Source: an uncultured Lachnospiraceae bacterium
GTDB lineage: Bacteria; Bacillota; Clostridia; Lachnospirales; Lachnospiraceae
Direction: 5' to 3'
Length of the DNA: 64,000 nucleotides
Assembly: GCA_947626745.1 (NCBI GenBank)
Contig: CANQTF010000006.1
Span: forward strand, 1 to 64,000
The notes beneath the pieces were generated by a model. The model did not search any database. It was not told where the DNA came from and saw only the letters and a program-made list of their open reading frames with translations. The position numbers were made by a program, and so were the translations under genes. This document shows, piece after piece, positions 40,180-53,015 of this stretch (its first letter is position 1; every line of letters starts with the position of its first letter).

Positions 40180-40680
40180 TTATAAACGGGGCTTCTCCTT
40201 CCCCATTGCCTTTTCCATATATATACAGACAAATCTCGAATCTCCTGCCGGCTCCTCCCCGCCCTCCTTTTTGGGCGCAAGGGTCTTAGGATCCATGTCG
40301 TACCTTGCTCTATATCCCAGCTTTTCATAAAAGGGAACTGCTTCCTCACGACTCGTAATGACTATCCTTTGATAGCCCTTCTCCGAGATCCATTCCTCGG
40401 CCGCCTCTATGCCAAGCCTTCCGGCTCCCAGCCTTCTTGCCGTGCTTATCGTTGCCACTCTCTCAATTTTGGCAAAGCCCTGATCGGGCATGAGATGGAT
40501 CCTGTTGGTACTCAGCGGTCTGCCCTCCTCGTCCACCACCAGAATATATTCCGACTCTCTGGTGTCATCTGCAAATTCGCCTTCCAGAGGAACGTGAAAG
40601 CCCAAGACCATGGCTTCCGTGCGCACATAATATACCCCGGCCCTGGCCCATTCCGAATCTTCTACTCTGATCGCCCGCAT
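40180..40680 (-). CDS. GNAT-family N-acetyltransferase
   Basis: Acetyl-CoA-dependent acetyltransferase of about 166 residues, last gene of the sulfur operon. The pattern IERVATISTARRLGAGRLGIEAAEEW gives the GNAT beta-4/pyrophosphate-binding region, and AVPFYEKLGYRAR is the typical C-terminal motif. I prefer the ATG at 40680, two bases beyond the permease stop with GGAAG upstream; the ATG at 40695 lies inside the permease gene. In Bacillus sulfur operons a GNAT acetylates cysteine conjugates; a similar job here is an inference from context only. Confidence 0.85.
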   Translation of the reverse strand: MRAIRVEDSEWARAGVYYVRTEAMVLGFHVPLEGEFADDTRESEYILVVDEEGRPLSTNRIHLMPDQGFAKIERVATISTARRLGAGRLGIEAAEEWISEKGYQRIVITSREEAVPFYEKLGYRARYDMDPKTLAPKKEGGEEPAGDSRFVCIYMEKAMGKEKPRL

Positions 40681-40682
40681 GC

Positions 40683-41618
40683 CTATACTTCCCATTTGAT
40701 CACCATTCTTTCCACCTTATTCACGGCAATGTCGATCACCGTGGTAATGACGCCGACTACCACGATGCCGGCGAGTATACACCTGTAGTCGGCAAAGCCC
40801 TTATATTTCTCGATAAAATATCCGATACCCAGATTCATGCCGAGCATTTCCGCACCCGACAGGCACATGAACGCTCCCCGGAGACTCTTCGAGATACTCC
40901 TGATGATCCCGGGCAGACAATAGGGAAATATCACCTTGGCCAGCATTCCCAAGGTCCCGACTCCCATTGTCCTGGCGGCCTCAATGATGGACTTATCGAT
41001 CTGCCCGACCCTGGCGATCGTTCCCTGCAGGGTCGGCCAGAACACGGCGAAGAAAATTACCGCAACCGCCGCCTGCCTGAACGTGGAGAGCAGCATGATC
41101 ATATACGCCGAAAACATCAGCGGCGGGATCAGCGTGATCGCATTGGAGATCGGAAGCAGTACTTCCCTCACTCTGGGTATCCAGCCCGCCAACAGGCCAA
41201 GCAGCGTCCCGAGGACGACCGCCAATAAAAAGCCCCAGAACAAAAGCTGCAGGGAGCCCAATACGTCCGCGCCGATCTCCTGCGGTTTATCCACAAAAAC
41301 ATGAAACAAGCCCTCAGGTGACGGGATCAGCAGATCGTTCCTGACTGCCCCCGTTTTGTAAGCCACCTCCCAAAAGGCAAAAAATGCGTAGATGACTACC
41401 GCGATATCCGACGTGCTTTTCTTTTTGTTCATATGCACGCTCACCGCGTAGATCAAAAAGATCAGGCTCAGGGCAGCGATGTAGGCCGCGCTGTCATAGT
41501 ACGCCTTATGCACGGTAAAATAAGGCAGCGCGAGCGTCAGAACGATATTGATGACAAAAAGCAGGGTGGCGATCCCGAATTCGATATACATGCCGGGCGC
41601 AAGCAGGAACTTCTTCAT
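40683..41618 (-). CDS. ABC importer permease, sulfonate/nitrate/taurine type
   Basis: Inner membrane permease of 311 residues with the BPD-type fold. The cytoplasmic EAA-like loop reads IEAARTMGVGTLGMLAKVIFP, and the family layout is six helices after an N-terminal extension of about 100 residues with two or three more. It pairs with the overlapping ATPase and with the lipoprotein four genes upstream. SsuC/TauC relatives carry organosulfur compounds, which fits the neighbours. Confidence 0.88.
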   Translation of the reverse strand: MKKFLLAPGMYIEFGIATLLFVINIVLTLALPYFTVHKAYYDSAAYIAALSLIFLIYAVSVHMNKKKSTSDIAVVIYAFFAFWEVAYKTGAVRNDLLIPSPEGLFHVFVDKPQEIGADVLGSLQLLFWGFLLAVVLGTLLGLLAGWIPRVREVLLPISNAITLIPPLMFSAYMIMLLSTFRQAAVAVIFFAVFWPTLQGTIARVGQIDKSIIEAARTMGVGTLGMLAKVIFPYCLPGIIRSISKSLRGAFMCLSGAEMLGMNLGIGYFIEKYKGFADYRCILAGIVVVGVITTVIDIAVNKVERMVIKWEV

Positions 41619-42439
41619 AATATCACCTCTGAATCAATGTTATCCTCCACATGGGCATAGAAGCTCGCTATCAGCTTTCTGTGAAGGTTTTCATACGCGG
41701 CGGTTCCGATCAGATCCTCTCTTCTTCTGGGATGGGGAAGGCCTACGTTCAAGATCGTCCGTATCTTTCCCGGCTCCATTACCACGATCCTGTCAGAAAG
41801 CAAAATGGCTTCGTCGATGTCATGGGTCACAAATACAACCGTCTTTTTGTGCTCCGTGCAGAGCCTTGAGACAAGCTCCTGAAGTTCGAGCCTAAGCTTG
41901 GGATCCACCGCCCCGAAGGGCTCGTCCAAAAGAAGGACATCCGATTCCAGCGCAAGAGCCCTTGCGACCGCAACTCTCTGTTTCATGCCGCCTGAGAGCT
42001 GGCCGGGGTACTTATTTGCCGCCCCTGCAAGGCCCACGTTCGCAAGATACTCCTCCGCCTTCACTTTCCGCTGCTTCCCGGTATATTTCCTGCCGCTCTG
42101 CCGGATCCCAAACTCCACGTTTCCCTTGGCCGTGAGCCACGGGAACAGGGAATATTGCTGAAATACGACCGCCCTGTCAGGGCCGGGCTCCGTAATTCTC
42201 TTTCCGTCCAAAAGGATCTCCCCCGACTTTGCCTTGTGCAGTCCGCTCAAAAGGCTGAGCAGCGTTGATTTACCGCACCCCGACAATCCCAGGATACATA
42301 CGAACTCACCCTCTTTGATAGCAAGACTCACATGCTCCAGAGCGGAAAATCTGCTTTTCTTGTCTATGTAGTCAAAAGACACATCTCTTATTTCCAGTTT
42401 ATTGGGACTGTCCGACAGATCCCTCATGTTCTCGCCCAT
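41615..42439 (-). CDS. ABC importer ATPase, SsuB/TauB type
   Basis: ATP-binding subunit of 274 residues. Walker A is GLSGCGKST, Q-loop VVFQQYSLFPW, signature QLSGGMKQR, Walker B VLLLDEPFGAVD, H-loop FVTHDIDEA. This is the pattern of nitrate/sulfonate/taurine importers. It overlaps the permease by 4 bases and follows cysK by 14 bases. Confidence 0.93.
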   Translation of the reverse strand: MGENMRDLSDSPNKLEIRDVSFDYIDKKSRFSALEHVSLAIKEGEFVCILGLSGCGKSTLLSLLSGLHKAKSGEILLDGKRITEPGPDRAVVFQQYSLFPWLTAKGNVEFGIRQSGRKYTGKQRKVKAEEYLANVGLAGAANKYPGQLSGGMKQRVAVARALALESDVLLLDEPFGAVDPKLRLELQELVSRLCTEHKKTVVFVTHDIDEAILLSDRIVVMEPGKIRTILNVGLPHPRRREDLIGTAAYENLHRKLIASFYAHVEDNIDSEVIL

Positions 42440-42453
42440 GTCTCCCTCTCATT

Positions 42454-43380
42454 TCAGTCAAACAGCGTTCCGGATAAATATTTTTCTCCGCTGTCCGGTA
42501 TGATCACCACAATGTTCTTCTCTCTGTTCTCAGGTCTTTTTGCCGCTATTTCGGCCGCATACAGGGCGGCTCCGGAGGAGATCCCCGCCAGCACGCCGTC
42601 CTCTCTCGCAAGGATCTTCGCGGTTTCAAAGGCTTCTTCTGTGGTAACGGCGATCACTTCGTCGTATACATCCAAATCCAGCGTATACGGTATAAATCCA
42701 GCGCCGATCCCCTGCAGCTTGTGAGATCCCGGCCGGCCTCCGGACAGAACGGGAGAATCCGCCGGTTCGACCGCGATCACCCGGATATCCGGATTCTGCT
42801 CCTTCAGATATTTGCCCGCGCCGGAAAGCGTTCCTCCGGTTCCCACACCGGCCACCAGAATATCGACTGCCCCATCCGTATCCCGCCAGATCTCAGGCCC
42901 TGTTGTCCTGTAATGCGCAAGCGGATTCGCCTCGTTCGTAAACTGGCCCGGAATGAAGCTGTGCGGGATCTCCTCCGCCAATTCATTGGCCTTTGCGATG
43001 GCGCCCTTCATGCCCTTTGCTCCTTCCGTCAGCACGAGCTCCGCCCCATAAGCCTTCAGGATATTCCTTCTTTCAACGCTCATGGTGTCCGGCATGGTAA
43101 GTATGGTTCGATATCCCTTTGCCGCCGCGATCGAGGCAATACCGATCCCCGTGTTTCCGCTCGTCGGCTCGATGATCACGGAAGCCTTGTTGAGGAGTCC
43201 CTTCTCTTCCGCCTCTTCCAGCATCGCAAGTCCGATCCTGTCCTTGATGCTGCCCGCAGGATTAAAATATTCCAGCTTCGCCAAAATATGAGCGCTGAAG
43301 CCTTTCCTTTCCCTGTAGCCCGTCAGCCTGACAAGCGGTGTGTTTCCCACTAAATCTGCCACATTCTCATATACCTTCAT
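42454..43380 (-). CDS. cysK: Cysteine synthase, canonical active site
   Basis: PLP enzyme of 308 residues making cysteine from O-acetylserine and sulfide. Intact signatures: PLP lysine in [11 protein letters not shown], substrate loop [14 protein letters not shown] in the 140s, TTGPEIW, phosphate loop GTGGTLSG and the PLP N1 serine in PDSGEKYLS. Co-transcribed with the ABC importer, which suggests the imported compound yields sulfide or a thiol that ends in cysteine. Confidence 0.93.
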
Positions 43381-43404
43381 GGTAGTTACCTCGCTCCCTG
43401 CCGA

Positions 43405-44616
43405 TCAATCCCTGAGCTTTGACTCGATCGCGTTGACTGCCGCATCCTTGGACAACGTTCTGTTCATGGGATCTCTGTCCTCCCAAGCCCTGGCATTCCA
43501 CTTTGACGCAGAGATGACCGACTGGTAAGCTTCCGCGGTCTCGCCCGCCGGATGCTTTTTGTACACGTTATCGGGATCCGCCGAAAGCGCTTTTCTGGAG
43601 CCGTCCGACGCCCACAGCTCATCATAGGGGACCTGCGCGGCGATCCTCTTCGGATAGCTTGCAAAAAGCCCTTTCGTGTCATTCTTGGGAAATTCAAAGA
43701 AGGTGTACTTCTTGAAAACTGCCAGGCTGTACAGATCCTTCACATATCCCCAGAGATTCTTGTATTCCGTAATGCGCTTCTTCATCGGCCCTATGTTGTG
43801 GTAGTAACTCGTCTCCCAGCGGACCAAGGTAACGTAAAGCCGGATATCCGAATCGGTTATGTAATCGCCAAACAGAAATCTGTTCGTCTCCAGTCTGCGA
43901 TCGAGCTTCTCGACCGACTCAAAAAAGTCACGATACGCTTCGTCATAAGCCTCCCATGACTGGCAGAAGGCCATCCGATAATGTCCGTTGTTGACGGTAG
44001 GGAACAGCCAGTCGTTAAACTCGTCGATCTCTCTTCTGTACTTCACCGGATAAAGATCCGGGGCATCCGCCGGCTGAAATTTCCGAAACTGGACTTCGAT
44101 ATAGTTTGTCAGCCGATGATAGTCGTTATTGACTGCCTTCTTCTCCTTTATGTCCACGAAGGTAGGCGTCGTAGCCCGCCCCGTGAAACCGGGATCTGCG
44201 TTTTTATAAAATTCACTCAGAAAATAGGCGCCGCAGAGAGGATCCTTGTGATCCTTTCTATCCGCAAAGCCGTGTCCGTATACGTTTGTCTCGCCAGTAT
44301 GAGTCGTCGCCACATCGAGGATCACATCGGTAAGTCCCAAGATGTCGCGCACGATCACGGGGCGGTTCGACCAGTGGCAGCCGTGCGCCCAATATATGGC
44401 ATAGCGTCCCGCCTCCGCCCTGTTGTCATCTTCCCCGTCTCCGAACGGCTTGATGAAGGCATTGGGCTGCCTGATGAAAGCGCCTCTGTCATCGATCTCC
44501 GATCTCGTTTCCTTCGGTCTCGGATCTACGCCGACCTCCTCGGCGTGCTGTCTTGCCTCTTCGTCCGTGTAGGGTACTCCTGCGAGTGCGTCCGATATGT
44601 TACATGTGTTTCCCAT
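43405..44616 (-). CDS. Glutathionyl-hydroquinone reductase-like (Xi-class GST) protein
   Basis: Protein of about 403 residues resembling the YqjG/ECM4 family, which uses a catalytic Cys to remove glutathione from quinone conjugates. The thioredoxin-fold site is YWAHGCHWSNRPVIVRD, where the Cys aligns with the CPW cysteine of the family; the helical C-terminal GST domain holds TDSDIRLYVTLVRW. I start at the ATG at 44616 with GGAGG five bases upstream; a frame extending to 44709 would cross the structured spacer. Glutathione use is unusual in anaerobic Clostridia, so the thiol partner may differ. Confidence 0.82.
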   Translation of the reverse strand: MGNTCNISDALAGVPYTDEEARQHAEEVGVDPRPKETRSEIDDRGAFIRQPNAFIKPFGDGEDDNRAEAGRYAIYWAHGCHWSNRPVIVRDILGLTDVILDVATTHTGETNVYGHGFADRKDHKDPLCGAYFLSEFYKNADPGFTGRATTPTFVDIKEKKAVNNDYHRLTNYIEVQFRKFQPADAPDLYPVKYRREIDEFNDWLFPTVNNGHYRMAFCQSWEAYDEAYRDFFESVEKLDRRLETNRFLFGDYITDSDIRLYVTLVRWETSYYHNIGPMKKRITEYKNLWGYVKDLYSLAVFKKYTFFEFPKNDTKGLFASYPKRIAAQVPYDELWASDGSRKALSADPDNVYKKHPAGETAEAYQSVISASKWNARAWEDRDPMNRTLSKDAAVNAIESKLRD

Positions 44617-44631
44617 TTTATCCTCCATTCT

Positions 44632-44702
44632 GGAGCGTGCTCGCGACAGGGCGACGCGAATCTCAAATTCGCGTCTGCCATCAGGGGAATTTGTGACGCT
44701 CC
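44632..44702 (-). promoter_or_regulatory. Structured spacer RNA upstream of the GST-like gene
   Basis: GGAGCGT (44632-44638) pairs with ACGCTCC (44696-44702), closing a domain that contains the perfect hairpin GACGCGAAT (44653-44661) / ATTCGCGTC (44667-44675). The domain ends just before the ribosome site of the GST-like gene. It could be an intergenic regulatory or processing element. It matches no riboswitch class I recognise. Confidence 0.4.
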
Positions 44703-44715
44703 GGCACAAACTCCC

Positions 44716-44752
44716 GTGTGAAAAATCAGCACATCAGTGTGATTTTTCACAC
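44716..44752 (-). terminator. 13-bp hairpin at the end of the divergent cysK
   Basis: GTGTGAAAAATCA (44716-44728) and TGATTTTTCACAC (44740-44752) form a perfect stem that begins at the last base of the stop codon. It has T-rich arms but no trailing T run, so partial termination or 3'-end protection within the operon is likely. Confidence 0.6.
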
Positions 44753-45684
44753 TATCCTTCCTCAAATAAATCGCTCGATAAATATTTGTTTCCGCCGTCA
44801 GGGAAGAGCACAACTATGTTCTTCCCTTTATTTTCGGGCCTTTTTGCAACAGTGACCGCCGCCCAGAGAGCTGCGCCGGCAGATATGCCGATCAGCAGCC
44901 CTTCCTTCTTCGGGCAGAGTCTTGTGTATCGGTAGGCGTCCTCATCCGTACAGAGCAGGATCTCCCTGTACAGCGCAAGGTCTGTGATCGGGCAGACAGC
45001 GCCGCCGCCGATGCCTTGGATCTTATGAGGGCCTGGCTCTCCGCCGTTCAACACGGGGCAGCCTGCCGGCTCTACCCCATATACCTCAATATTCGGATTC
45101 TGCCTCTTTAAATAGTGGCCGATCCCGCCGGATGTGCCGCTGGTTCCCACCGCTGCCACAAAAATGTCCACTTTACCGTCCATGTCGTTCCATATCTCCG
45201 GGCCGGTATGCTTTTCGTGAGCCTCCGGGTGATGAGGGTTCTCTCCCTGTGCGGGTCGAAACGCCCCCTCTTTTTCTTCCAGCTCCTTTGCCTTAGATCC
45301 CGCCTGTGCAAAGCCGGAATTCTTCGGCGTGAGCGCAACCTCCGCTCCAAAGGCTTTCAGGATCTTAATTTTCTCCCTGCCGGCCCCTTCCTGCATACAG
45401 ATGACCGCATGGTACTTTTTCACCGCCGCCACAAGCGCGATCCCGATTCCGGTATTGCCGGAGGTCCCCTCGGCGATCGTTCCGCCGGCTTTCAGCTTTC
45501 CCTCGGCCTCTGCGGCCTCGATCATATTCAGGGCGGCCCTGTCCTTTACGCTGCCGCCGGGATTCAGTCCCTCGATCTTGGCATAGAGCTTTGCCTCCAG
45601 CTTCTCTTCCTCTTCGATCTTGTTCAAATGCAGCAGCGGCGTATTGCCGATCAGTTGTAACACATTGTCATATATTTTTCCCAT
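44752..45684 (-). CDS. Divergent cysteine synthase-family PLP enzyme
   Basis: Fold-type II PLP protein of 310 residues. The PLP lysine is kept in NPGGSVKDRAA and the phosphate loop is GTSGTSGG. Several positions that are conserved in true O-acetylserine sulfhydrylases differ: the substrate loop is EGTSGNTG (P to G), QFxN is QGEN, TTGPE is HTGPE, and the serine that contacts the PLP ring nitrogen (DSGEKY) is glycine (PDGGNKYLS). It therefore may use another substrate or reaction, such as a C-S lyase or a synthase with another nucleophile. Sits between the lipoprotein and GST-like genes. Confidence 0.85.
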   Translation of the reverse strand: MGKIYDNVLQLIGNTPLLHLNKIEEEEKLEAKLYAKIEGLNPGGSVKDRAALNMIEAAEAEGKLKAGGTIAEGTSGNTGIGIALVAAVKKYHAVICMQEGAGREKIKILKAFGAEVALTPKNSGFAQAGSKAKELEEKEGAFRPAQGENPHHPEAHEKHTGPEIWNDMDGKVDIFVAAVGTSGTSGGIGHYLKRQNPNIEVYGVEPAGCPVLNGGEPGPHKIQGIGGGAVCPITDLALYREILLCTDEDAYRYTRLCPKKEGLLIGISAGAALWAAVTVAKRPENKGKNIVVLFPDGGNKYLSSDLFEEG

Positions 45685-45704
45685 GCCGTTTTCCTCTGCA
45701 AACT

Positions 45705-46931
45705 TTAATTGTCCGAATGGAACTGTTCCAAAAGCGCCGCATAAAATGCATTTTCCGGCTCTCTTGCCACCAGCGCATCGAGCGCCTGCTCGTACGCCGA
45801 CACATCAATATTCTGCTTTATGTCATAGGTCGCGAAATCCGTTCCCGCGCTTGCAAGAAGGCCCGAGTTCGCCGCTGCCTCCACATACTTGACGATTCCA
45901 TTCGTGTTGGGATCCGTCGCATACTTTGTGACCCCTCCGTAGAGGTAGGTCTCCACATAATCGGCTTCCTTGCCGGAATATGCCGCTACCGTCTTTACGA
46001 CGTCATCCTTGATCGCCTCATCCGTCTCGCCCTGCTTGTAATACGCAAAGGCTCTGATCCTCGCCGTCTCATACGCCACAAACGCATCGAACTTTTCGGC
46101 CAGCCTTGCCGACGACGTGACCTCACGGCAGCACACATAATTCTCCTGCAGCGCGCCGGCCGGCGTAACCACCTCCAGATCATAGGCATCTCCGTAGAGG
46201 AGCGCATATTCCATGGGCAGGAATCCGAGATCCACCGTGCCCTTCTGGACTGCCTGTGCCAAGGCCGTCTCATCCGCGAAATAGGAAACATTGCCCGTGG
46301 CTTCGTCCTCGATCGCCGCTATCGTCTGCGCATCCACGCCATTGTCCAGCAGATATTGGCGGGTGATGACCCATGCCGATTCGTTTCTCTGGTATCCCAG
46401 CTTTGCGGACGTAACGGCGTCGATGTCAAGGATCGTCGAAGCATTCCGATACTTTTCCGCATTTCCTTTTTGGGTGATCACTGCGCCGCCCTCAACCGCC
46501 GTACCGGCGATCACCGTGATATCCAAGCCCGAGCCGATCGCCTGAAGATCCGGTACAAAACCCGCGCATAAAATATCAAGCTGGTCATTGTCCCCGGCGA
46601 TCGCCGTCAGCGCATCCTGGCCGGCGATATTGACAGGCTCGACCGTTACGCCCTCTTCCTCAAAGTAGCCCTTTTCAAGCGCCAGGATATTGATCGCGAC
46701 CCGGATATTCCCCGTGGGATAGGACACCTTTAACGTTCCGTTGTCCTCTGCCGTCTTGTCGTCCGCCGCCTTATCTTCTGCCGCCTTGTCCTCCGCCGGG
46801 GCGGCCGCCGAGGTCTCCGGCGTCTCCTCCTCAGCGGGAGCCTGGGATATGGCTGCTGTCTGTCCGCAGCCTGTAAGGGTGACAGCCGCAAGCGCTGCGG
46901 CAAACCATAAACTTAAAAATTTCTTTTTCAT
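45705..46931 (-). CDS. ABC importer substrate-binding lipoprotein, NMT1/TauA-like
   Basis: Extracytoplasmic solute-binding lipoprotein of 408 residues. Lipobox LTGC at the end of a signal peptide (Cys near 22); an Ala/Glu/Asp-rich linker with repeated AEDKAA units (about 30-65); then the SsuA/TauA-type fold starting VSYPTGNIRVAINILALEKGYFEEEGV. Together with the permease and ATPase downstream it forms one importer. The family binds sulfonates, nitrate or pyrimidine-like compounds; gene context favours an organosulfur ligand. Confidence 0.9.
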   Translation of the reverse strand: MKKKFLSLWFAAALAAVTLTGCGQTAAISQAPAEEETPETSAAAPAEDKAAEDKAADDKTAEDNGTLKVSYPTGNIRVAINILALEKGYFEEEGVTVEPVNIAGQDALTAIAGDNDQLDILCAGFVPDLQAIGSGLDITVIAGTAVEGGAVITQKGNAEKYRNASTILDIDAVTSAKLGYQRNESAWVITRQYLLDNGVDAQTIAAIEDEATGNVSYFADETALAQAVQKGTVDLGFLPMEYALLYGDAYDLEVVTPAGALQENYVCCREVTSSARLAEKFDAFVAYETARIRAFAYYKQGETDEAIKDDVVKTVAAYSGKEADYVETYLYGGVTKYATDPNTNGIVKYVEAAANSGLLASAGTDFATYDIKQNIDVSAYEQALDALVAREPENAFYAALLEQFHSDN

Positions 46932-46956
46932 GTGATATCCTCCGTTTTGTGTCGTT

Positions 46957-48078
46957 TTATATCGTCATAAGCGTCAGTGCAAGCTCTGCCGCTCTTTCCA
47001 ACTCTTTTATGACGGTGTACTCTCCGGTCGTATGTACGTTTTCCATTGCGCAGGCCAAAACCATTGTCTGAATGCCGTTCTCCCAAAGCCTGTTGCCGTC
47101 GCTTCCGCCCATGGTGGCAACGAGCTTTGGACTGCTGATACCAATGCTTTCTGCCGCCTTCAGGAATCTTTCTACGACCGCTTCCTCTCTGTTTGTTTTG
47201 AATGCCCTGATGTGGTCGTTCCTGCAACAATGTGCGATCCCGCCGGCCTTCCTCGCGTTTTGTTGAAATCTGTGCAGGATCCTGTCCGCCTCGTCAGCGG
47301 CTTTTTGATGACTCAGGCTTCTGACTTCCCCTGTGATCCTCACGTTTTCCGGAACGATGTTTTTGGCGATCCCGCCGGCGATCGTTCCGAAATTAACGGT
47401 GGTTTCCTCATCGACGTGGCCGGTCTTCATATCTTTCAGGCTCTCCACCGCAATATTTAACGCATTGACGCCTTGCTCCGGCGCGAAGCCGGCATGGGCG
47501 CCCCTGCCCGCAATATCGATCTCAAATGAAATGATCGACGGCGCCGATATTGCGGCCCGCCCTACCGGACCGCTCAGATCAAACACATACGCATTCCTGG
47601 ACTTTAAAATGCCGTAATCAAAATATCTCGATCCCTCGCAAAACGGCTCCTCCGCAACGGTAAAGAGAATCTCTATGTCAGAATGCTTGCGGCCTTCCTC
47701 TCTTAACCGCTCCAGTCCCTCCAAAACGGCAACGACCCCTGACAGGTCATCTGCCCCAAGCACGGTGTCTCCGCCCGAGACGATCTTTCCATCCTCCGTT
47801 ACATATGCCCTCTTGCCGTTCCCGGGAGCCACCGTATCCAAATGGGCCGAAAATAGGAGCGGCGTCCCCTCTCTGTTCCCCCGCAGAAAACCGTATATAT
47901 TCGGGAAGCTGTCGGGATGCGCCTTTAAGTAGGCCGCATCCGTCGTATCCGTTCTGACCTCGACGCCCAGGGAAACCAATCTGTCAACGATGTATCTTGC
48001 TATCGCCTGTTCATGGAACGATTCGCTGTCAAAACCCGAAAGCTCTATGAAATTCTCTACGATTCTGTTTGCTCCCAT
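46957..48078 (-). CDS. M20-family metallopeptidase (PepT-like)
   Basis: Zinc aminopeptidase/deacylase of 373 residues, first gene of the sulfur operon. Metal and catalytic motifs: SAHLDTVAPG, LGADDLSGV, TVAEEPFCEGS, the dimerisation domain start GRGAHAG, and GGSDGN near the C terminus. Closest by pattern to the PepT/PepT-like tripeptidase group; M20 relatives also deacetylate N-acyl cysteine compounds. In this operon, release of a cysteinyl residue from an imported peptide or N-acyl conjugate is plausible but inferred. Confidence 0.88.
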   Translation of the reverse strand: MGANRIVENFIELSGFDSESFHEQAIARYIVDRLVSLGVEVRTDTTDAAYLKAHPDSFPNIYGFLRGNREGTPLLFSAHLDTVAPGNGKRAYVTEDGKIVSGGDTVLGADDLSGVVAVLEGLERLREEGRKHSDIEILFTVAEEPFCEGSRYFDYGILKSRNAYVFDLSGPVGRAAISAPSIISFEIDIAGRGAHAGFAPEQGVNALNIAVESLKDMKTGHVDEETTVNFGTIAGGIAKNIVPENVRITGEVRSLSHQKAADEADRILHRFQQNARKAGGIAHCCRNDHIRAFKTNREEAVVERFLKAAESIGISSPKLVATMGGSDGNRLWENGIQTMVLACAMENVHTTGEYTVIKELERAAELALTLMTI

Positions 48079-48103
48079 GCCCCGATCCTTTCAACCCTCT
48101 ATA

Positions 48104-48120
48104 CCTATCTTTTTTATAGG
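48104..48120. promoter_or_regulatory. 17-bp dyad, candidate Rrf2 operator (site A)
   Basis: Plus strand CCTATCTTTTTTATAGG. It lies about 25 bases downstream of the -10 element of the sulfur operon, suited to block transcription. It shares its form with two more copies near 51.2 kb. Confidence 0.6.
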
Positions 48121-48144
48121 TTTTGTATGTTTGACATTGTAACC

Positions 48145-48173
48145 ATTATAGTTCCTCACCCTATACCTGTCAA
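48145..48173 (-). promoter_or_regulatory. Consensus promoter of the M20-ABC-cysK operon
   Basis: Minus strand TTGACA (48168-48173), exactly 17 bases, TATAAT (48145-48150): a perfect sigma-A consensus. Expected to be strong unless repressed, which fits the operator-like dyad just downstream. Confidence 0.85.
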
Positions 48174-48211
48174 TCATTTTTTTTATTTATTTCATTGATC
48201 CTTTTATCTTC

Positions 48212-49393
48212 TTATCGGATCGCCCTTTTTAGCTGTTCCAGCGCTTTCTCCAAAGTGACTCTCGGACAGGCCACATTAAACCGTTCAAACCCTTCCCCCG
48301 CTTTTCCGAATATGGCGCCGGAATCCAGCCACAGGTTTGCCTTCCTCACGATCAGTCTTTCCAATTCTGTTTCGGACAGGCCGAGCCCTCTGAAATCTAC
48401 CCAGACAAGATAGGTCCCCTCCGGCTCCGTCATGACAAGCTGCGGCAGTTCTTTTTCCAGATAAGCTTTCATGAACCGGATATTTTCTGACACATACGTC
48501 ATCATTTCCTCATACCAGTCATCTCCATAAAGGTACGCGGCCTCACAGGCGGTCAGCCCCATGGCGTTCAACTGGCTGTATCCCGCTGCCGCGATCTGCT
48601 TTTTGAACTGTCTGCGGAGCTCCGCATTGGGAATCAGGATATTGGATACCTGCAGCCCCGCAAGGTTAAATGTCTTTGCCGGAGAGGTACAGGTAACGGA
48701 TATGTCTGCAAACTCCTGCCGCAGATCGGCGAAAACCGTATGCTTCCTGTTTCCCCACACAAAATCCTCATGGATCTCGTCACTCAGGACGATCACATGA
48801 TATTTCCGGCATATTTCTCCTATTTTCAACAGCTCTTCCTCTGTCCACACCCTGCCTACCGGATTGTGCGGGCTGCACAGCAGAAAGAGGGTCACTTTCT
48901 CCTTGGCCGCTTTTCTCTCAAAATCTGCAAAATCAATATGATACTTCCCGTCTTCTCCCAACACCAGATCGCTGCTGACCACTTTTCTGCCGTTATCCTC
49001 TATTACCTCCGTAAACGGATAATAGACCGGCTGCTGGATCAGGACCCCATCGCCCGCCTTCGTGTACGCTTTTACCGCCATGGCAAGCGCAAATACCACG
49101 CCCGGCGTCTTTACGAGCCAGTTCTCCTTTATCTCCCAGCCATGCCGCCTGTTCATCCAGCCGGCCACAGCGCCAAAATAGCTTTCACCGCTCTCGGTAT
49201 AGCCAAAGATCCCGTGCTCCGCTCTTCTGCGAATGGCGTCGATGATCTTCTCCGACGTCTTAAAATCCATATCCGCCACCCAGAGAGGCAGGACATTCTC
49301 AGGCCGTCCGCGCCTTACGGCAAAATCATATTTCAGGCAGCCGGTGCCCCTTCTTTCTATCGGCGTATCAAAATCAAATTTTTCTTCCCGCAT
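48212..49393 (-). CDS. PatB/MalY-family PLP C-S lyase
   Basis: Fold-type I aminotransferase-like enzyme of 393 residues. Motifs: VADMDFKTSEKI near the N terminus, SPHNPVGRVW, SDEIHEDFV and the PLP lysine in SPAKTFNLAGLQVSN. This is the MalY/PatB group, which cleaves cystathionine or cysteine S-conjugates to thiol, pyruvate and ammonia. It follows the transsulfuration gene by 13 bases as a two-gene unit. Confidence 0.9.
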   Translation of the reverse strand: MREEKFDFDTPIERRGTGCLKYDFAVRRGRPENVLPLWVADMDFKTSEKIIDAIRRRAEHGIFGYTESGESYFGAVAGWMNRRHGWEIKENWLVKTPGVVFALAMAVKAYTKAGDGVLIQQPVYYPFTEVIEDNGRKVVSSDLVLGEDGKYHIDFADFERKAAKEKVTLFLLCSPHNPVGRVWTEEELLKIGEICRKYHVIVLSDEIHEDFVWGNRKHTVFADLRQEFADISVTCTSPAKTFNLAGLQVSNILIPNAELRRQFKKQIAAAGYSQLNAMGLTACEAAYLYGDDWYEEMMTYVSENIRFMKAYLEKELPQLVMTEPEGTYLVWVDFRGLGLSETELERLIVRKANLWLDSGAIFGKAGEGFERFNVACPRVTLEKALEQLKRAIR

Positions 49394-49406
49394 ACAAACA
49401 CCCTCT

Positions 49407-50558
49407 TTATCCGAAAGCTTCTATTGCCTGTCTTAGATCCGCGATCAGGTCATTCTTATCTTCAATGCCGGCGGAAAGCCGCAGTATCCGGTCCGTAAGC
49501 CCGTTCTTGATCCGTACCTCTTCCGGCACGTCCGCATGCGTCTGCGTTGTCGGATAGGTGAGAAGGGTCTCCGTCCCGCCCAGACTCTCCGCAAAAGGAA
49601 TGAGCTTGGTAGATCGCAGGATATGAAGCGCCAACTCCCTGCTTTCCACTTCAAAAGTCAGCATACTGCCAAACCCGCTTGCCTGAGCTTTACATATTTC
49701 ATATCCCCTGCTGCCCGGTATCCCCGGGTAATAGACCTTTTTCACCTTCGGCTCGTGCAAAAGATATTCCGCCAAAGCCTTTGCGTTCTCCTGCGCCTTT
49801 TCCATGCGGATCGGCAGCGTTTTGATCCCTCTGATGATCAGCCAGCTGTCAAAGGGCGAAAGCCCCGAGCCCACAGTCTTGATCAGGAACCGGAGCCTGT
49901 CGGATATCTCCTTGGAATTCGTCACAAGAAAACCCGCCAGCGTATCATTGTGCCCGCCAAGGAATTTGGTACCGCTGTGGACGATGATATCCGCGCCAAG
50001 GGCAAAAGGCTTTTGAAAATAAGGAGACATAAATGTATTGTCTACGATCAAAAGAAGGCCATGCTCCTTTGCGATTTTGGAGATCTTGCGGATATCCACC
50101 ACATTCATCATCGGGTTTGTGGGCGTTTCAATGAAGATCGCTTTTGTATTCTCCTGTATGTAATCTTCCACATTCTCCGCAGAACAATCTATGTGGCTGA
50201 ATAAAATGCCGTTCTTCTTATTCACATGATCAAACAGCCTGATACTGCCGCCATACATATCCGTGTCCGTGATCAGATGATCCCCCGGCTCAAACAGCTC
50301 CATCATCGCCGTGATCGCTGCCATGCCGGTAGAAAATGCCAGCGCATCGATGCCGCCCTCAAGGGAGGCCACTATCTTCTCCGCCTGCTGCCGCGTGGGA
50401 TTCTGCAGTCTGCTGTAATCAAACCCCGTGCTCTGTCCTACTTCCGGGTGCGCATAGGTCGCCGTCTGATAGATCGGAAAGCTGATCGCCCCCGTTTTAT
50501 CCTTGTCGTAATCCTTTCCGTTCCCATAAATACATCTTGTTGCAAAACCATAATCCAT
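49407..50558 (-). CDS. Cys/Met-metabolism PLP enzyme (cystathionine synthase/lyase type)
   Basis: Fold-type I gamma-family enzyme of 383 residues. Visible: YSRLQNPTRQQAEKIVA, STGMAAI, TDMYGGSIRLF, the PLP aspartate region VDNTFMSPYFQKP and the PLP lysine in SGTKFLGGHNDT. Family members act as cystathionine gamma-synthase, cystathionine lyase, methionine gamma-lyase or O-acetylhomoserine sulfhydrylase; the sequence does not decide. I start at the ATG at 50558 with AAAGGAG upstream. Divergent from the Rrf2 regulator. Confidence 0.9.
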   Translation of the reverse strand: MDYGFATRCIYGNGKDYDKDKTGAISFPIYQTATYAHPEVGQSTGFDYSRLQNPTRQQAEKIVASLEGGIDALAFSTGMAAITAMMELFEPGDHLITDTDMYGGSIRLFDHVNKKNGILFSHIDCSAENVEDYIQENTKAIFIETPTNPMMNVVDIRKISKIAKEHGLLLIVDNTFMSPYFQKPFALGADIIVHSGTKFLGGHNDTLAGFLVTNSKEISDRLRFLIKTVGSGLSPFDSWLIIRGIKTLPIRMEKAQENAKALAEYLLHEPKVKKVYYPGIPGSRGYEICKAQASGFGSMLTFEVESRELALHILRSTKLIPFAESLGGTETLLTYPTTQTHADVPEEVRIKNGLTDRILRLSAGIEDKNDLIADLRQAIEAFG

Positions 50559-50634
50559 TGCTTTCTCCTTTCTTCGCCCCAATTTATCGGAACCGGGGTA
50601 TCCTTGTTAAAATATTTTCCTTTTCTTTTTGTTC

Positions 50635-50663
50635 TTGATTGCCTACCGTTCCTGTGGTAAGAT
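50635..50663 (+). promoter_or_regulatory. Promoter of the rrf2-type gene with an internal dyad
   Basis: TTGATT (50635-50640), 17-base spacer, TAAGAT (50658-50663). The spacer and -10 contain TACC-N8-GGTA (50644-50659), a possible autoregulatory site, though it does not match the 17-bp dyad. Confidence 0.5.
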
Positions 50664-50713
50664 AAGTTTTGAAACAGCAAACCACATGATACTGCATTTT
50701 GGAGGCGATCACT

Positions 50714-51145
50714 TTGAAGATTTCCACCCGCGGAAGGTATGCTTTCCGCATGATGATAGACTTGGCCCAGCATTACAATGAAGGCTTTATCGCACTGAAG
50801 GATATATCCGCCAGACAGCATATTTCCAAAAAATATCTGGAACAGATTATCCCGTTCTTCAACCGCAGCAATCTGCTCCTCGCCAACAAAGGGCACATGG
50901 GCGGTTATCAGCTGGCAAAGCACCCCAGCCAGATCACTGTCCGGGAGATTCTGGAGAGCGCGGAAGGCAGCCTCACTCCTGTAAGCTGTATGGACAATGT
51001 TCCCAACCGATGCGAAAATGCATGCAGCTGTATCGTCCTGCCCGTCTATCAGGGCCTTTATGAAGTCATACTTGACTACCTGAACGGTATCACGCTTGCA
51101 GATGTCATCAGCAGGGAGAATGACAGCTGCGAATACTATATCTAG
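50714..51145 (+). CDS. Rrf2-family transcriptional regulator (CymR/IscR-like)
   Basis: DNA-binding regulator of 143 residues. The winged helix begins MKISTRGRYAFRMMIDLA, with recognition region ISKKYLEQIIPFF and wing KGHMGGYQLAK. Cysteines at 92, 100, 104 and 106 lie where Fe-S members hold their cluster ligands (IscR uses 92, 98 and 104), so an Fe-S or thiol sensor is possible. CymR members repress cysteine genes via CysK. I start at the TTG at 50714 with GGAGG 8 bases upstream. Divergent from the transsulfuration gene, it is the likely regulator of the whole sulfur locus. Confidence 0.88.
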   Translation: MKISTRGRYAFRMMIDLAQHYNEGFIALKDISARQHISKKYLEQIIPFFNRSNLLLANKGHMGGYQLAKHPSQITVREILESAEGSLTPVSCMDNVPNRCENACSCIVLPVYQGLYEVILDYLNGITLADVISRENDSCEYYI

Positions 51146-51285: not shown

Positions 51286-51302
51286 CCTACCAAACTAATA
51301 GG
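51286..51302. promoter_or_regulatory. 17-bp dyad, candidate Rrf2 operator (site C)
   Basis: Plus strand CCTACCAAACTAATAGG, placed immediately downstream of the -10 of the minus-strand consensus promoter at 51307-51335, covering its start point. Confidence 0.6.
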
Positions 51303-51306
51303 ATTT

Positions 51307-51335
51307 ATTATACATATAAGACGGGCTTTTGTCAA
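51307..51335 (-). promoter_or_regulatory. Consensus promoter pointing antisense through rrf2
   Basis: Minus strand TTGACA (51330-51335), 17 bases, TATAAT (51307-51312). No good protein gene starts on this strand before 50558, so the transcript would run antisense to rrf2 into the transsulfuration-patB genes. Confidence 0.75.
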
Positions 51336-52055: not shown

Positions 52056-53015
52056 TTACAGGCTCTTTTTTTCAATGATAGTTCGCACTTCTTCTGCGGT
52101 TTTTCCAACAGTCCTTGCTATCTTTTCTAGTGAATCACCATCTCTGTGCATGTTCATTATCACTTTTGCTAAAGTGTCATCTCTAATTCCCTGACTCAGA
52201 TTGCACATAACTTTCACATCCTTTCTTAATTTATCCTCTGCCGGAATATCATACTCTGTTTCGATAATGTTTAGTTTCTCATCAGAAGTAAGTTGTTTTG
52301 ACAGCAGCGCCCCTAACAATCGGTGCAGTTCATATTTATCATCATGCACCGGAAGTTCATTGGCTATACCAATCAGGACAATATTCAGCAGGTCAAGTCT
52401 GCCTTTCCACGGATAATCACCGATCAGTTTGTCATTCGATAGATGAATATAATCCATGCAGTTTTCTTCTGTTCCCATGCAAATCCAAATTGAGAATACA
52501 CGCCTTATGTCATTATAATTGGTATTGACAAAATCCCTCTCCTTCTGTGAAGAAATCAGTCTACTCACATAGAATACTGCCCGATTTAAGATATGGTAGC
52601 CTGTCGGCTCATCTTTCTGCGCCTCTACATTTATGATCACCTGTGAGATGCCGTCTTTCATCCGCACATAAAAAATAATGTCAAACCGCAAAAGCCCTTC
52701 GTTGATCTCCGCATTTTCCGTGTTCAGCCCGACAATGCACTGCCCGTTTTCTTTACGTTCTGCATTTGTCAGCCCCGGCTCTACCGGCACAATGCCGATA
52801 AGCGGCTCGCCCTCTATATAAGGCACTACATCTTTGGGGTTCATGCCGTGAAATTCATCAACCGTTTTTACTAAGATATGCGCCAGAATGATCTTATTTC
52901 CAAGCAGACGTTTTGCCCTGTCATCATATTGGGCATCCTGATCTGCAGCGCAGACTGCATTTTTTATTTCCGCATCCTTCAGCCATAAACCTCCTTTTTG
53001 TGATAGGAAATGCAA
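52056..53015 (-). CDS. Rpn-family PD-(D/E)XK nuclease / transposase-like protein
   Basis: Protein of up to 319 residues of the Rpn (recombination-promoting nuclease, PDDEXK) family. Catalytic pattern: RFDIIFYVRM for the Asp and IINVEAQKDE for the ExK-like (ExQ) site; a helical middle and the C-terminal ARTVGKTAEEVRTIIEK follow. The AT-rich composition differs from the flanks. The only in-frame start at 53015 is TTG with a modest AGGGA site, while a perfect AAAGGAGG-ATG just downstream is out of frame, so the N terminus may be frameshifted. Confidence 0.75.
   Translation of the reverse strand: MHFLSQKGGLWLKDAEIKNAVCAADQDAQYDDRAKRLLGNKIILAHILVKTVDEFHGMNPKDVVPYIEGEPLIGIVPVEPGLTNAERKENGQCIVGLNTENAEINEGLLRFDIIFYVRMKDGISQVIINVEAQKDEPTGYHILNRAVFYVSRLISSQKERDFVNTNYNDIRRVFSIWICMGTEENCMDYIHLSNDKLIGDYPWKGRLDLLNIVLIGIANELPVHDDKYELHRLLGALLSKQLTSDEKLNIIETEYDIPAEDKLRKDVKVMCNLSQGIRDDTLAKVIMNMHRDGDSLEKIARTVGKTAEEVRTIIEKKSL

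Follow-up and report, generated by a model that had tools for sequence, protein, structure and literature searches.

Bacterial recovery of cysteine from its S-conjugates is described as relying on a flavin enzyme that needs oxygen or, in the case of a single adduct, on a lyase, according to passages of three reports (PMC9706529, PMC12757645, PMC10863075). In Bacillus subtilis, these passages relate, cysteine adducts are N-acetylated by a GNAT acyltransferase, broken by a flavin mononucleotide (FMN) monooxygenase and deacetylated by an M20 enzyme (PMC9706529, PMC12757645). A lyase can substitute for the monooxygenase, 11 of 102 yxe loci hold neither breakdown enzyme (PMC9706529), and, as the authors note, lack of oxygen might make the monooxygenase ineffective (PMC9706529, PMC12757645). 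Here, we analyse a gene cluster of an uncultured Lachnospiraceae bacterium in which the place of the breakdown enzyme may be taken by a relative of the Xi-class glutathione S-transferases (GSTs), which we call the CxWS enzyme after its active-site motif. The cluster lies in a stretch of 64,000 nucleotides (the window) on contig C6, part of a draft genome that totals 2.69 Mb in 49 contigs at 83.5% completeness, and it comprises ten minus-strand genes (40180–50582) and a divergent plus-strand gene for an Rrf2-family regulator (50699–51145), with families assigned by Pfam and NCBIfam.

The locus shares with the B. subtilis scm/yxe, yha and ytn systems, which salvage S-(2-succino)cysteine and S-alkylcysteine, a GNAT, an M20 enzyme, one breakdown enzyme and a sulfur-linked setting; an ABC importer, described for yxe, is likewise found in both, as is the proposed logic of acetylation, breakdown and deacetylation. 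However, the breakdown enzyme proposed here is a Xi-like GST relative rather than an FMN monooxygenase or a lyase, the M20 enzyme is PepT-like, the importer in the window is of the NMT1/Ssu type, and two extra CysKs and a CGL–PatB pair are present. A yxe-type cluster has been defined by at least three yxe components standing together (a passage of PMC9706529). A GNAT (single or double), an ABC importer and an M20 enzyme, matched to yxe components at the family level only, occur together in 32 of 66 related loci. The luciferase-like family PF00296, used for a YxeK-type FMN monooxygenase and the only flavin-monooxygenase family searched, is found in 0/16 genomes (15 of the 18 with a match to the GST relative, G185, G295 and G308 being left out, plus G349 without one) and in 10 of 14 control genomes. 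The statement of the original prediction, which was made from the sequence alone, that a flavin monooxygenase is missing stands to this extent, for a window genome of the completeness given above.

Sequence comparison supports the cluster well as a candidate locus for recovering the sulfur of imported cysteine or thiol conjugates, following the Bacillus logic with another cleaving enzyme, as that prediction had proposed. The support comes from conserved neighbourhoods, from a palindrome common to this cluster and the housekeeping cysK and nifS genes, and from two CysK clades of the cluster's own.

Conserved neighbourhoods, a palindrome and two CysK clades

Scanning named genomes with a sequence pattern turned up 389 candidate stretches, of which 368 were relatives; the best were retained as 79 loci. 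Among 100 loci, 97 carry a CxWS gene (L046, L048 and L054 do not), and dropping 31 with an enzyme at least 90% identical left 66 non-redundant ones, whose neighbour families were named by Pfam on cluster representatives. Within 10 kb of the CxWS gene, M20 is present in 44 of these loci, CGL in 39, PatB in 36, CysK in 35, GNAT in 30 and a double GNAT in 16, together with binding proteins of the NMT1 type (23), the amino-acid type (SBP_bac_3, 29) or the peptide type (3). At least one of M20, CGL, PatB and CysK is found in 56/66 and all four in 22/66. As controls, 20 windows of 20 kb were taken at arbitrary places in seven of the same genomes; one of them held any of the four (CGL once and CysK once), none held M20, PatB, GNAT, double GNAT or a binding protein of the three types, and an amino-acid-type ATPase occurred once, OppC twice and Rrf2 once. 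Conservation of the neighbourhood in other genomes had been set beforehand as a test of the original prediction, which the prediction withstands. The core of binding protein, CysK, GST, CysK, ATPase and permease recurs in nine of the 66 loci, window included, and the whole ten-gene run is also present in L062; the gene order is therefore not due to chance. A compact run of GST, SBP_bac_3-type binding protein, GNAT, permease, ATPase and M20 is seen in 3/66 loci, among them L095, where neighbouring genes are −14 to +21 bp apart. Since the importer type varies while the enzyme, by which the loci were chosen, is constant, the CxWS enzyme is not bound to one transporter type.

In L096, L120, L101 and L111, and close by in L084, a peptide-type importer (SBP_bac_5, OppB, OppC and a pair of ATPases) and an M28 peptidase are encoded after the CxWS gene, an arrangement that looks as if a peptide such as a glutathione conjugate were imported. 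In L091, L102 and L112, Rrf2, IscS-like, IscU-like and LysR genes lie upstream of the CxWS gene and of two importer modules. A group II intron (Rfam RF02003) lies at L095:18885–19025, less than 4 kb from the compact cluster. Across the 66 loci, Rrf2 is found in 14 and LysR in 17.

Matches to the window protein were found in 5/291 genomes of the class and 15/250 of the family (own genome and classical copies counted), and a profile of the CxWS set matched in 3/299 genomes of the phylum, own genome counted. Many of the locus titles name the rumen, omasum or reticulum of ruminants, and many name Lachnospiraceae; others name Treponema (L117, L119, L129), Treponemataceae (L113) or Acholeplasmatales (L090, L097, L131, L133), and three metagenome-assembled genomes are titled 'Bacillales' or 'Bacillus' (L073, L082, L104). 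The Treponema, Acholeplasmatales and 'Bacillales' titles suggest horizontal transfer or binning error.

A palindrome, CCTATAAAAAAGATAGG, lies just downstream of the promoter in front of the M20 gene. Its general form, CCTAY-N7-RTAGG, occurs exactly twice in the window (at 48104 and 51286; 0.13 expected) and five times in the whole genome. One site is 28 bp before the housekeeping cysK frame, one is in front of a NifS cysteine desulfurase gene (548.7 bits, cut-off 530.75), one precedes the M20 operon, and one is next to rrf2, which separates it from the CGL start about 700 bp away, so that four of the five are at cysK, nifS and this cluster; the fifth is near an open reading frame (ORF) without a Pfam match. 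Sites of a tighter form, CCTAYTN5ARTAGG, number 15 and are spread over 10 of 16 genomes; nine of the sites adjoin cysK, CGL, rrf2, the GST cluster, a GCS2 ligase or a binding lipoprotein, and the other six do not. With up to one mismatch, the palindrome is present in 30 of 145 operon-start regions of related loci (resampled mean 1.6, maximum 5), a count that is partly circular because both the palindrome and a LysR-type box, TKATAR-N7-YTATMA, were first seen in these same regions; the box is present in 28/145 (resampled mean 3.0, maximum 8). Resampling was by a first-order Markov model, with near-identical regions not all removed. Control loci of 398 kb gave 15 palindrome and 35 LysR-box matches, i.e., about 1.3 and 3 per length tested. 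Two loci with Treponema titles, L117 and L119, each carry three exact palindromes upstream of the CxWS gene, plus a LysR-type box.

The regulator encoded beside the cluster scores above the cut-off of the rrf2_super model. According to a passage of PMC3828012, cysK and the uptake of cysteine are under CymR control in B. subtilis, and by analogy (PMC3828012 and a passage of PMC9338935) the neighbouring Rrf2 protein may be the regulator acting at the palindrome. The CymR (Bacillus/Staphylococcus) and IscR/Rrf2 regulons have in common with this locus an Rrf2 protein next to cysteine genes and a palindrome at cysK and related genes.

The two CysKs are as unequal as the original prediction had them. 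CysK1 reaches 446 bits on TIGR01139 (cut-off 351), whereas CysK2 stays just under that model (348.1 vs. 350.95 bits) and just above the broader cysKM model TIGR01136 (345.4 vs. 344.15 bits). In a quick tree of 74 CysKs (all trees here carry SH-aLRT support only), CysK2 falls in a group of 32 rows (support 100) and CysK1 in a group of 17 (support 98), and every row of both groups comes from a CxWS locus. Outside both lie 17 CysKs from elsewhere in the genomes, among which eight further cluster CysKs fall, and also three more non-cluster CysKs with intact frames (L174–L176), upon whose addition the supports are 98 for CysK2 and 95 for CysK1. Compared with positions fixed in 25 housekeeping-type rows, CysK2 has Pro to Gly before the TSGNTG loop, Phe to Gly after an invariant Gln, Ala to Gly in the GIGAG loop and Leu to Thr (each 32/32), as well as Ile to Gly (94%) and Ser to Ala in GISSGA (97%). 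Its pocket thus looks as if it were enlarged for a bulkier beta-substituent.

The CxWS enzyme and its partners

The enzyme had been named as like a glutathionyl-hydroquinone reductase (GHR). Its fold match is indeed to the Xi-class GSTs, but no NCBIfam model matches it, Pfam detects the GST C-terminal domain only, and the CxWS proteins form a clade apart from the classical copies in a tree rooted on one distant row. A passage of PMC6345682 gives CPWA as the strictly conserved motif of the Xi-class GSTs (GHRs). All 95 CxWS proteins compared (from the redundant set, full-length copies only, 121/124) have C[HN]WS instead, against CPWA in 20 co-aligned classical copies; L055 (CCWSNC) and L056 (CAWSNR) were counted as CxWS loci in the neighbourhood count and are not among the 95. 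Of the tyrosine triad, which all 20 classical copies keep in full, the equivalent of Y195 is present in 95/95 CxWS proteins and that of Y253 in 92/95 (Phe in the other three), whereas that of Y296 is present in 1/95, and the His neighbouring this third Tyr is not aligned in 94/95. With both defining motifs lacking, GHR is a valid label for the fold but is not supported as a functional name.

Compared with E. coli YqjG, yeast ECM4 and C. glutamicum MstX, the CxWS enzyme shares the fold, the active-site Cys and Trp, two of the three tyrosines and the arginines aligned with R25 and R130 of YqjG, but Trp96 is His in 76/95. The active-site Cys is invariant and single in the aligned proteins. The glutathione-site Glu-Ser of YqjG is Asp-Tyr in 95/95, as it is in alignments with a Corynebacterium enzyme; a Gordonia enzyme is close, with Asp-Phe. 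The thiol of mycothiol is an N-acetylcysteinyl group. As MstX works with mycothiol (a passage of PMC6815410), the Asp-Tyr site, which is as in 3m1g, could therefore suit N-acyl-cysteine conjugates, if the 3m1g enzyme uses mycothiol. In ECM4, glutathione was bound to Cys46 after a soak with GS-menadione, and in the Xi mechanism a mixed disulfide arises when the active-site Cys attacks the sulfur of the conjugate (PMC5063366); by analogy, such an attack would provide an oxygen-free breakdown step in the CxWS pathway.

A second precedent is offered by LigG and the omega-class GSTs, which carry out thiol-dependent, in their case glutathione-dependent, thioether cleavage in aerobic lignin degraders. 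The chemistry proposed here is the same, whereas the CxWS enzyme belongs to another GST class. The hosts also differ from those of Xi-class enzymes with respect to glutathione: among the 16 genomes, the synthesis family PF04262 is found in none (2/14 controls) and the glutamate-cysteine ligase family PF04107 in one, G087 (5/14 controls). In the latter (G087:C3, L047:2202–4290), a GCS2-family ligase and a class II glutamine amidotransferase are encoded near the GST cluster with the palindrome at their start, so that glutathione or gamma-glutamylcysteine is a possible thiol in this genome.

Classical CPWA-type copies (CPWAHR, CPWANR, CPWATR) share clusters with CxWS genes in L049, L050, L051 and L127; in L127, three GHR-like genes stand side by side, one of them a CPH variant, and seven loci contain short GHR-like fragments from the C-terminal end (cluster c20). 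In several genomes, CxWS or CPWA copies are multiple, and the CxWS enzyme may therefore act on more than one substrate. Neither the enzyme nor the cluster is described in the titles or abstract openings of the open-licence PubMed Central (PMC) literature, among the matches listed.

The lipoprotein of the importer carries vicinal cysteines in a YVCCR motif (residues 265–269), with C267, C268 and R269 invariant in 24/24 cluster copies; the CC motif is kept in seven of 11 more distant relatives and absent in four. These cysteines could grip a thiol or a metal. The fold matches (CmpA, NrtA, SsuA, Thi5 and TauA) cover too many ligands for one to be named, and no PDB relatives were found by sequence. 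Of 250 family genomes, 111 contain a match at an E-value of 0.001, mostly weak and over the first part only, and four, the window's included, contain one of at least 40% identity over most of the protein. The neighbourhoods of 11 relatives (nine at 25–31% and two at 41–42% identity) gave a mixed result: PatB (40–59% identity) is in three, CysK in three, LysR in three, CGL in two and Rrf2 in one, while four have none of these, one being a 3.5-kb contig.

Among the other partners, 29 of 30 cluster GNATs carry a simple acetyl-CoA loop pattern, and the M20 residues H79, D81, D110, E143, E144, D167 and H349 are invariant in the 16 aligned of 44 found. A crude lysine pattern for PatB matched 23/35 and was not used. 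No 2SL lyase is among the annotated representatives of gene clusters common to at least six loci; no genome-wide search was made for it.

Layout of the locus

All the genes listed in the original prediction were recovered at their coordinates and in the families assigned there (Table 1).

Table 1. Features of the cluster, with window coordinates, strand and supporting match
Feature	Position (strand)	Match or remark
GNAT N-acyltransferase	40180..40695 (-)	Pfam Acetyltransf_1, 3.1e-12
ABC permease, SsuC/TauC-like	40683..41618 (-)	Pfam BPD_transp_1; below cut-off for each of the 16 NCBIfam models listed
ABC ATPase, nitrate/taurine-type	41615..42439 (-)	Pfam ABC_tran, 7.3e-34
CysK1, cysteine synthase paralogue of this cluster type	42454..43380 (-)	TIGR01139, over cut-off
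CxWS-type Xi-like GST (GHR-like)	43405..~44628 (-)	Active-site Cys86
CysK2, divergent CysK with bulky-to-glycine changes	44752..45684 (-)	
NMT1/SsuA-like substrate-binding lipoprotein with vicinal cysteines (CCR)	45705..46931 (-)	Pfam NMT1
M20 PepT-like metallohydrolase	46957..48078 (-)	TIGR01883, 282.5 bits (cut-off 274)
Palindrome CCTAY-N7-RTAGG (proposed operator)	48104..48120	Exact match, upstream of M20-to-GNAT operon
Promoter TTGACA-17-TATAAT of M20-to-GNAT operon	48173..48145 (-)	12/12
PatB-family C-S lyase (cystathionine / cysteine-conjugate beta-lyase)	48212..49393 (-)	TIGR04350, 473.7 bits (cut-off 340)
CGL/CGS-family PLP (pyridoxal phosphate) enzyme (transsulfuration)	49407..50582 (-)	Pfam Cys_Met_Meta_PP, 2.7e-140
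Rrf2-family regulator, possible cysteine regulator	50699..51145 (+)	Pfam Rrf2, 6e-33
Second palindrome	51286..51302	Exact match, just downstream of 12/12 promoter 51335..51307 (-)

From M20 to GNAT, eight genes follow one another closely (spacing −13 to +42 bp), in agreement with the operon first proposed. The gap between PatB and M20 is 133 bp and holds a 12/12 promoter and the palindrome, and we therefore read probably two transcription units instead of one, CGL–PatB and M20–lipoprotein–CysK2–GST–CysK1–ATPase–permease–GNAT. A promoter scan of the window gave 13 sites against 9.4 expected (standard deviation 2.8), so that only the two 12/12 sites stand out. The second of these and its palindrome point into the 3′ end of rrf2, and this promoter could give an antisense RNA across rrf2 or a leader of roughly 700 bases for CGL–PatB.

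Rfam gave no match at all in the window, and on 15 related loci it gave only one group II intron, one signal recognition particle RNA and one tRNA; control by a riboswitch or T-box was rejected on these grounds. A tRNA search of the window found none. Beside the cluster, the ORF at 52056–53015 (minus strand) has a weak, below-cut-off match to a PD-(D/E)XK nuclease family transposase.

A proposed oxygen-independent pathway and its rivals

We infer the reactions, the substrate, the regulation and the pairing of Rrf2 with the palindrome from sequence, as follows. The lipoprotein and ABC transporter would import a cysteine S-conjugate (with an amino-acid- or peptide-type importer doing so in other loci), and the GNAT would N-acylate it. 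The active-site Cys of the CxWS GST would then attack the conjugate sulfur, freeing the S-substituent and leaving a mixed disulfide on the enzyme, from which a small thiol would release N-acyl-cysteine; this step would take over the part that a flavin monooxygenase needing O2 (or the succino-lyase) plays in the Bacillus-type pathway. The M20 enzyme would deacylate N-acyl-cysteine to cysteine, while CysK2/CysK1, CGL and PatB would channel conjugates or freed sulfur into cysteine and methionine. When cysteine is abundant, Rrf2 would repress the operon via the palindrome. The natural substrates are likely cysteine or glutathione adducts, of plant, host or xenobiotic origin, that reach the rumen and gut. 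For the pathway as a whole, i.e., an anaerobe's route, controlled together with the cysteine genes, from conjugate import through N-acylation and thiol-dependent cleavage to deacylation, we estimate a probability of roughly one half. Tentatively, the CxWS enzyme may represent a third, oxygen-independent way of breaking such conjugates, in which an enzyme derived from the Xi GSTs, its quinone site lost, takes the S-substituent off N-acyl-cysteine conjugates by thiol exchange.

Several observations weigh against this pathway. Ten of the 66 loci have none of M20, CGL, PatB and CysK, and 13 have no recognised binding protein; some of these, not all, are at contig ends. The palindrome read backwards gives 12 genomic sites against five, and the tighter form 55 against 15 in the 16 genomes, so that the number of sites is not enriched and their position alone is the evidence. 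The Rrf2 protein scores under the equivalog cut-offs of both CymR (94 of 195 bits) and IscR. The 20 classical CPWA copies have Asp-Tyr as well, so that it is no marker of the CxWS enzyme. The GNATs are common and diverse here (29–70% identity to the window copy, for 19 others aligned of 29). The Bacillus N-acetylcysteine deacetylases (ScmP/YtnL) are M20 enzymes of the amidohydrolase family, whereas the one here matches PepT-like TIGR01883 and reaches only 63 of 153.75 bits on the amidohydrolase model TIGR01891; it may therefore be a peptidase instead of a deacylase.

Among the rivals, the one that survives best is a disulfide-type salvage, in which the CxWS enzyme would be a glutaredoxin-like thiol transferase acting on imported mixed disulfides or S-sulfocysteine rather than on thioethers. 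Xi enzymes such as MstX have thioltransferase activity, with monothiol reduction of mixed disulfides (a passage of PMC6815410), and a single invariant active-site Cys would serve for this, as would an importer resembling cystine transporters (the nearest model of the compact-run permease is cystine permease, below cut-off at 175 vs. 300 bits). However, this explanation leaves the acyltransferase, M20 and importer that accompany the enzyme in nearly half of the loci unaccounted for, and an anaerobe should generally reduce mixed disulfides readily without a dedicated enzyme; we regard it as unlikely.

Less probable still is the detoxification of xenobiotics or quinones, in which the GST would relieve toxic electrophiles of their thiol adducts, with the sulfur genes merely recycling the thiol. 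The Xi-class fold fits it, as do the classical CPWA copies, with the third Tyr kept, within 10 kb of the CxWS gene in 12/66 loci, and a survey of gut flavonoid enzymes reports GHRs with glutathionyl-quercetin as substrate to be widespread in gut bacteria (PMC12940152, in passages that are silent on the CxWS clade and cluster). The near-absence of the third Tyr and its neighbouring His from the CxWS proteins, the palindrome tying the cluster to cysteine genes and the dedicated importers all argue against it.

An ordinary operon for methionine and cysteine biosynthesis, with the GST as a passenger, appears quite improbable. CGL–PatB can be a cystathionine gamma-synthase and beta-lyase, and CysK1 passes as a cysteine synthase, but a housekeeping cysK (C2:174379) and an above-cut-off cysE (C5:106137) are elsewhere in the genome, the cluster-type CysKs form groups of their own, and the GST recurs across three importer types, though in loci chosen for having it. 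The original prediction had left the imported compound as a thiol conjugate or a sulfonate-like one; the former is retained, and use of sulfonate or taurine through an SsuABC/TauABC-like transporter, which the transporter family and the lipoprotein fold match to SsuA and TauA would suggest, is very improbable because no luciferase-type (SsuD-type) monooxygenase is found in the 16 genomes, and furthermore the lipoprotein scores 22 bits on the SsuA-family model TIGR01728 (cut-off 163.5) and the same enzyme stands beside amino-acid or peptide importers in other loci.

Rumen and gut anaerobes should meet plant, host and drug thiol conjugates, and among the matches listed, the open-licence PMC literature yielded no oxygen-free counterpart of the known recovery routes in these organisms. 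If the proposed pathway is true, rumen and gut Lachnospiraceae (together with the contigs titled Treponema and Acholeplasmatales) carry mosaic clusters with importers for conjugates of glutathione, cysteine or acyl-cysteine, in effect running the mercapturate pathway backwards, and this could explain yxe-like clusters from which both known breakdown enzymes are missing. It would also mean that a GST class has been re-used by bacteria that mostly lack the tested glutathione-synthesis genes. The six-gene version in L095 presents the question in a directly testable form.

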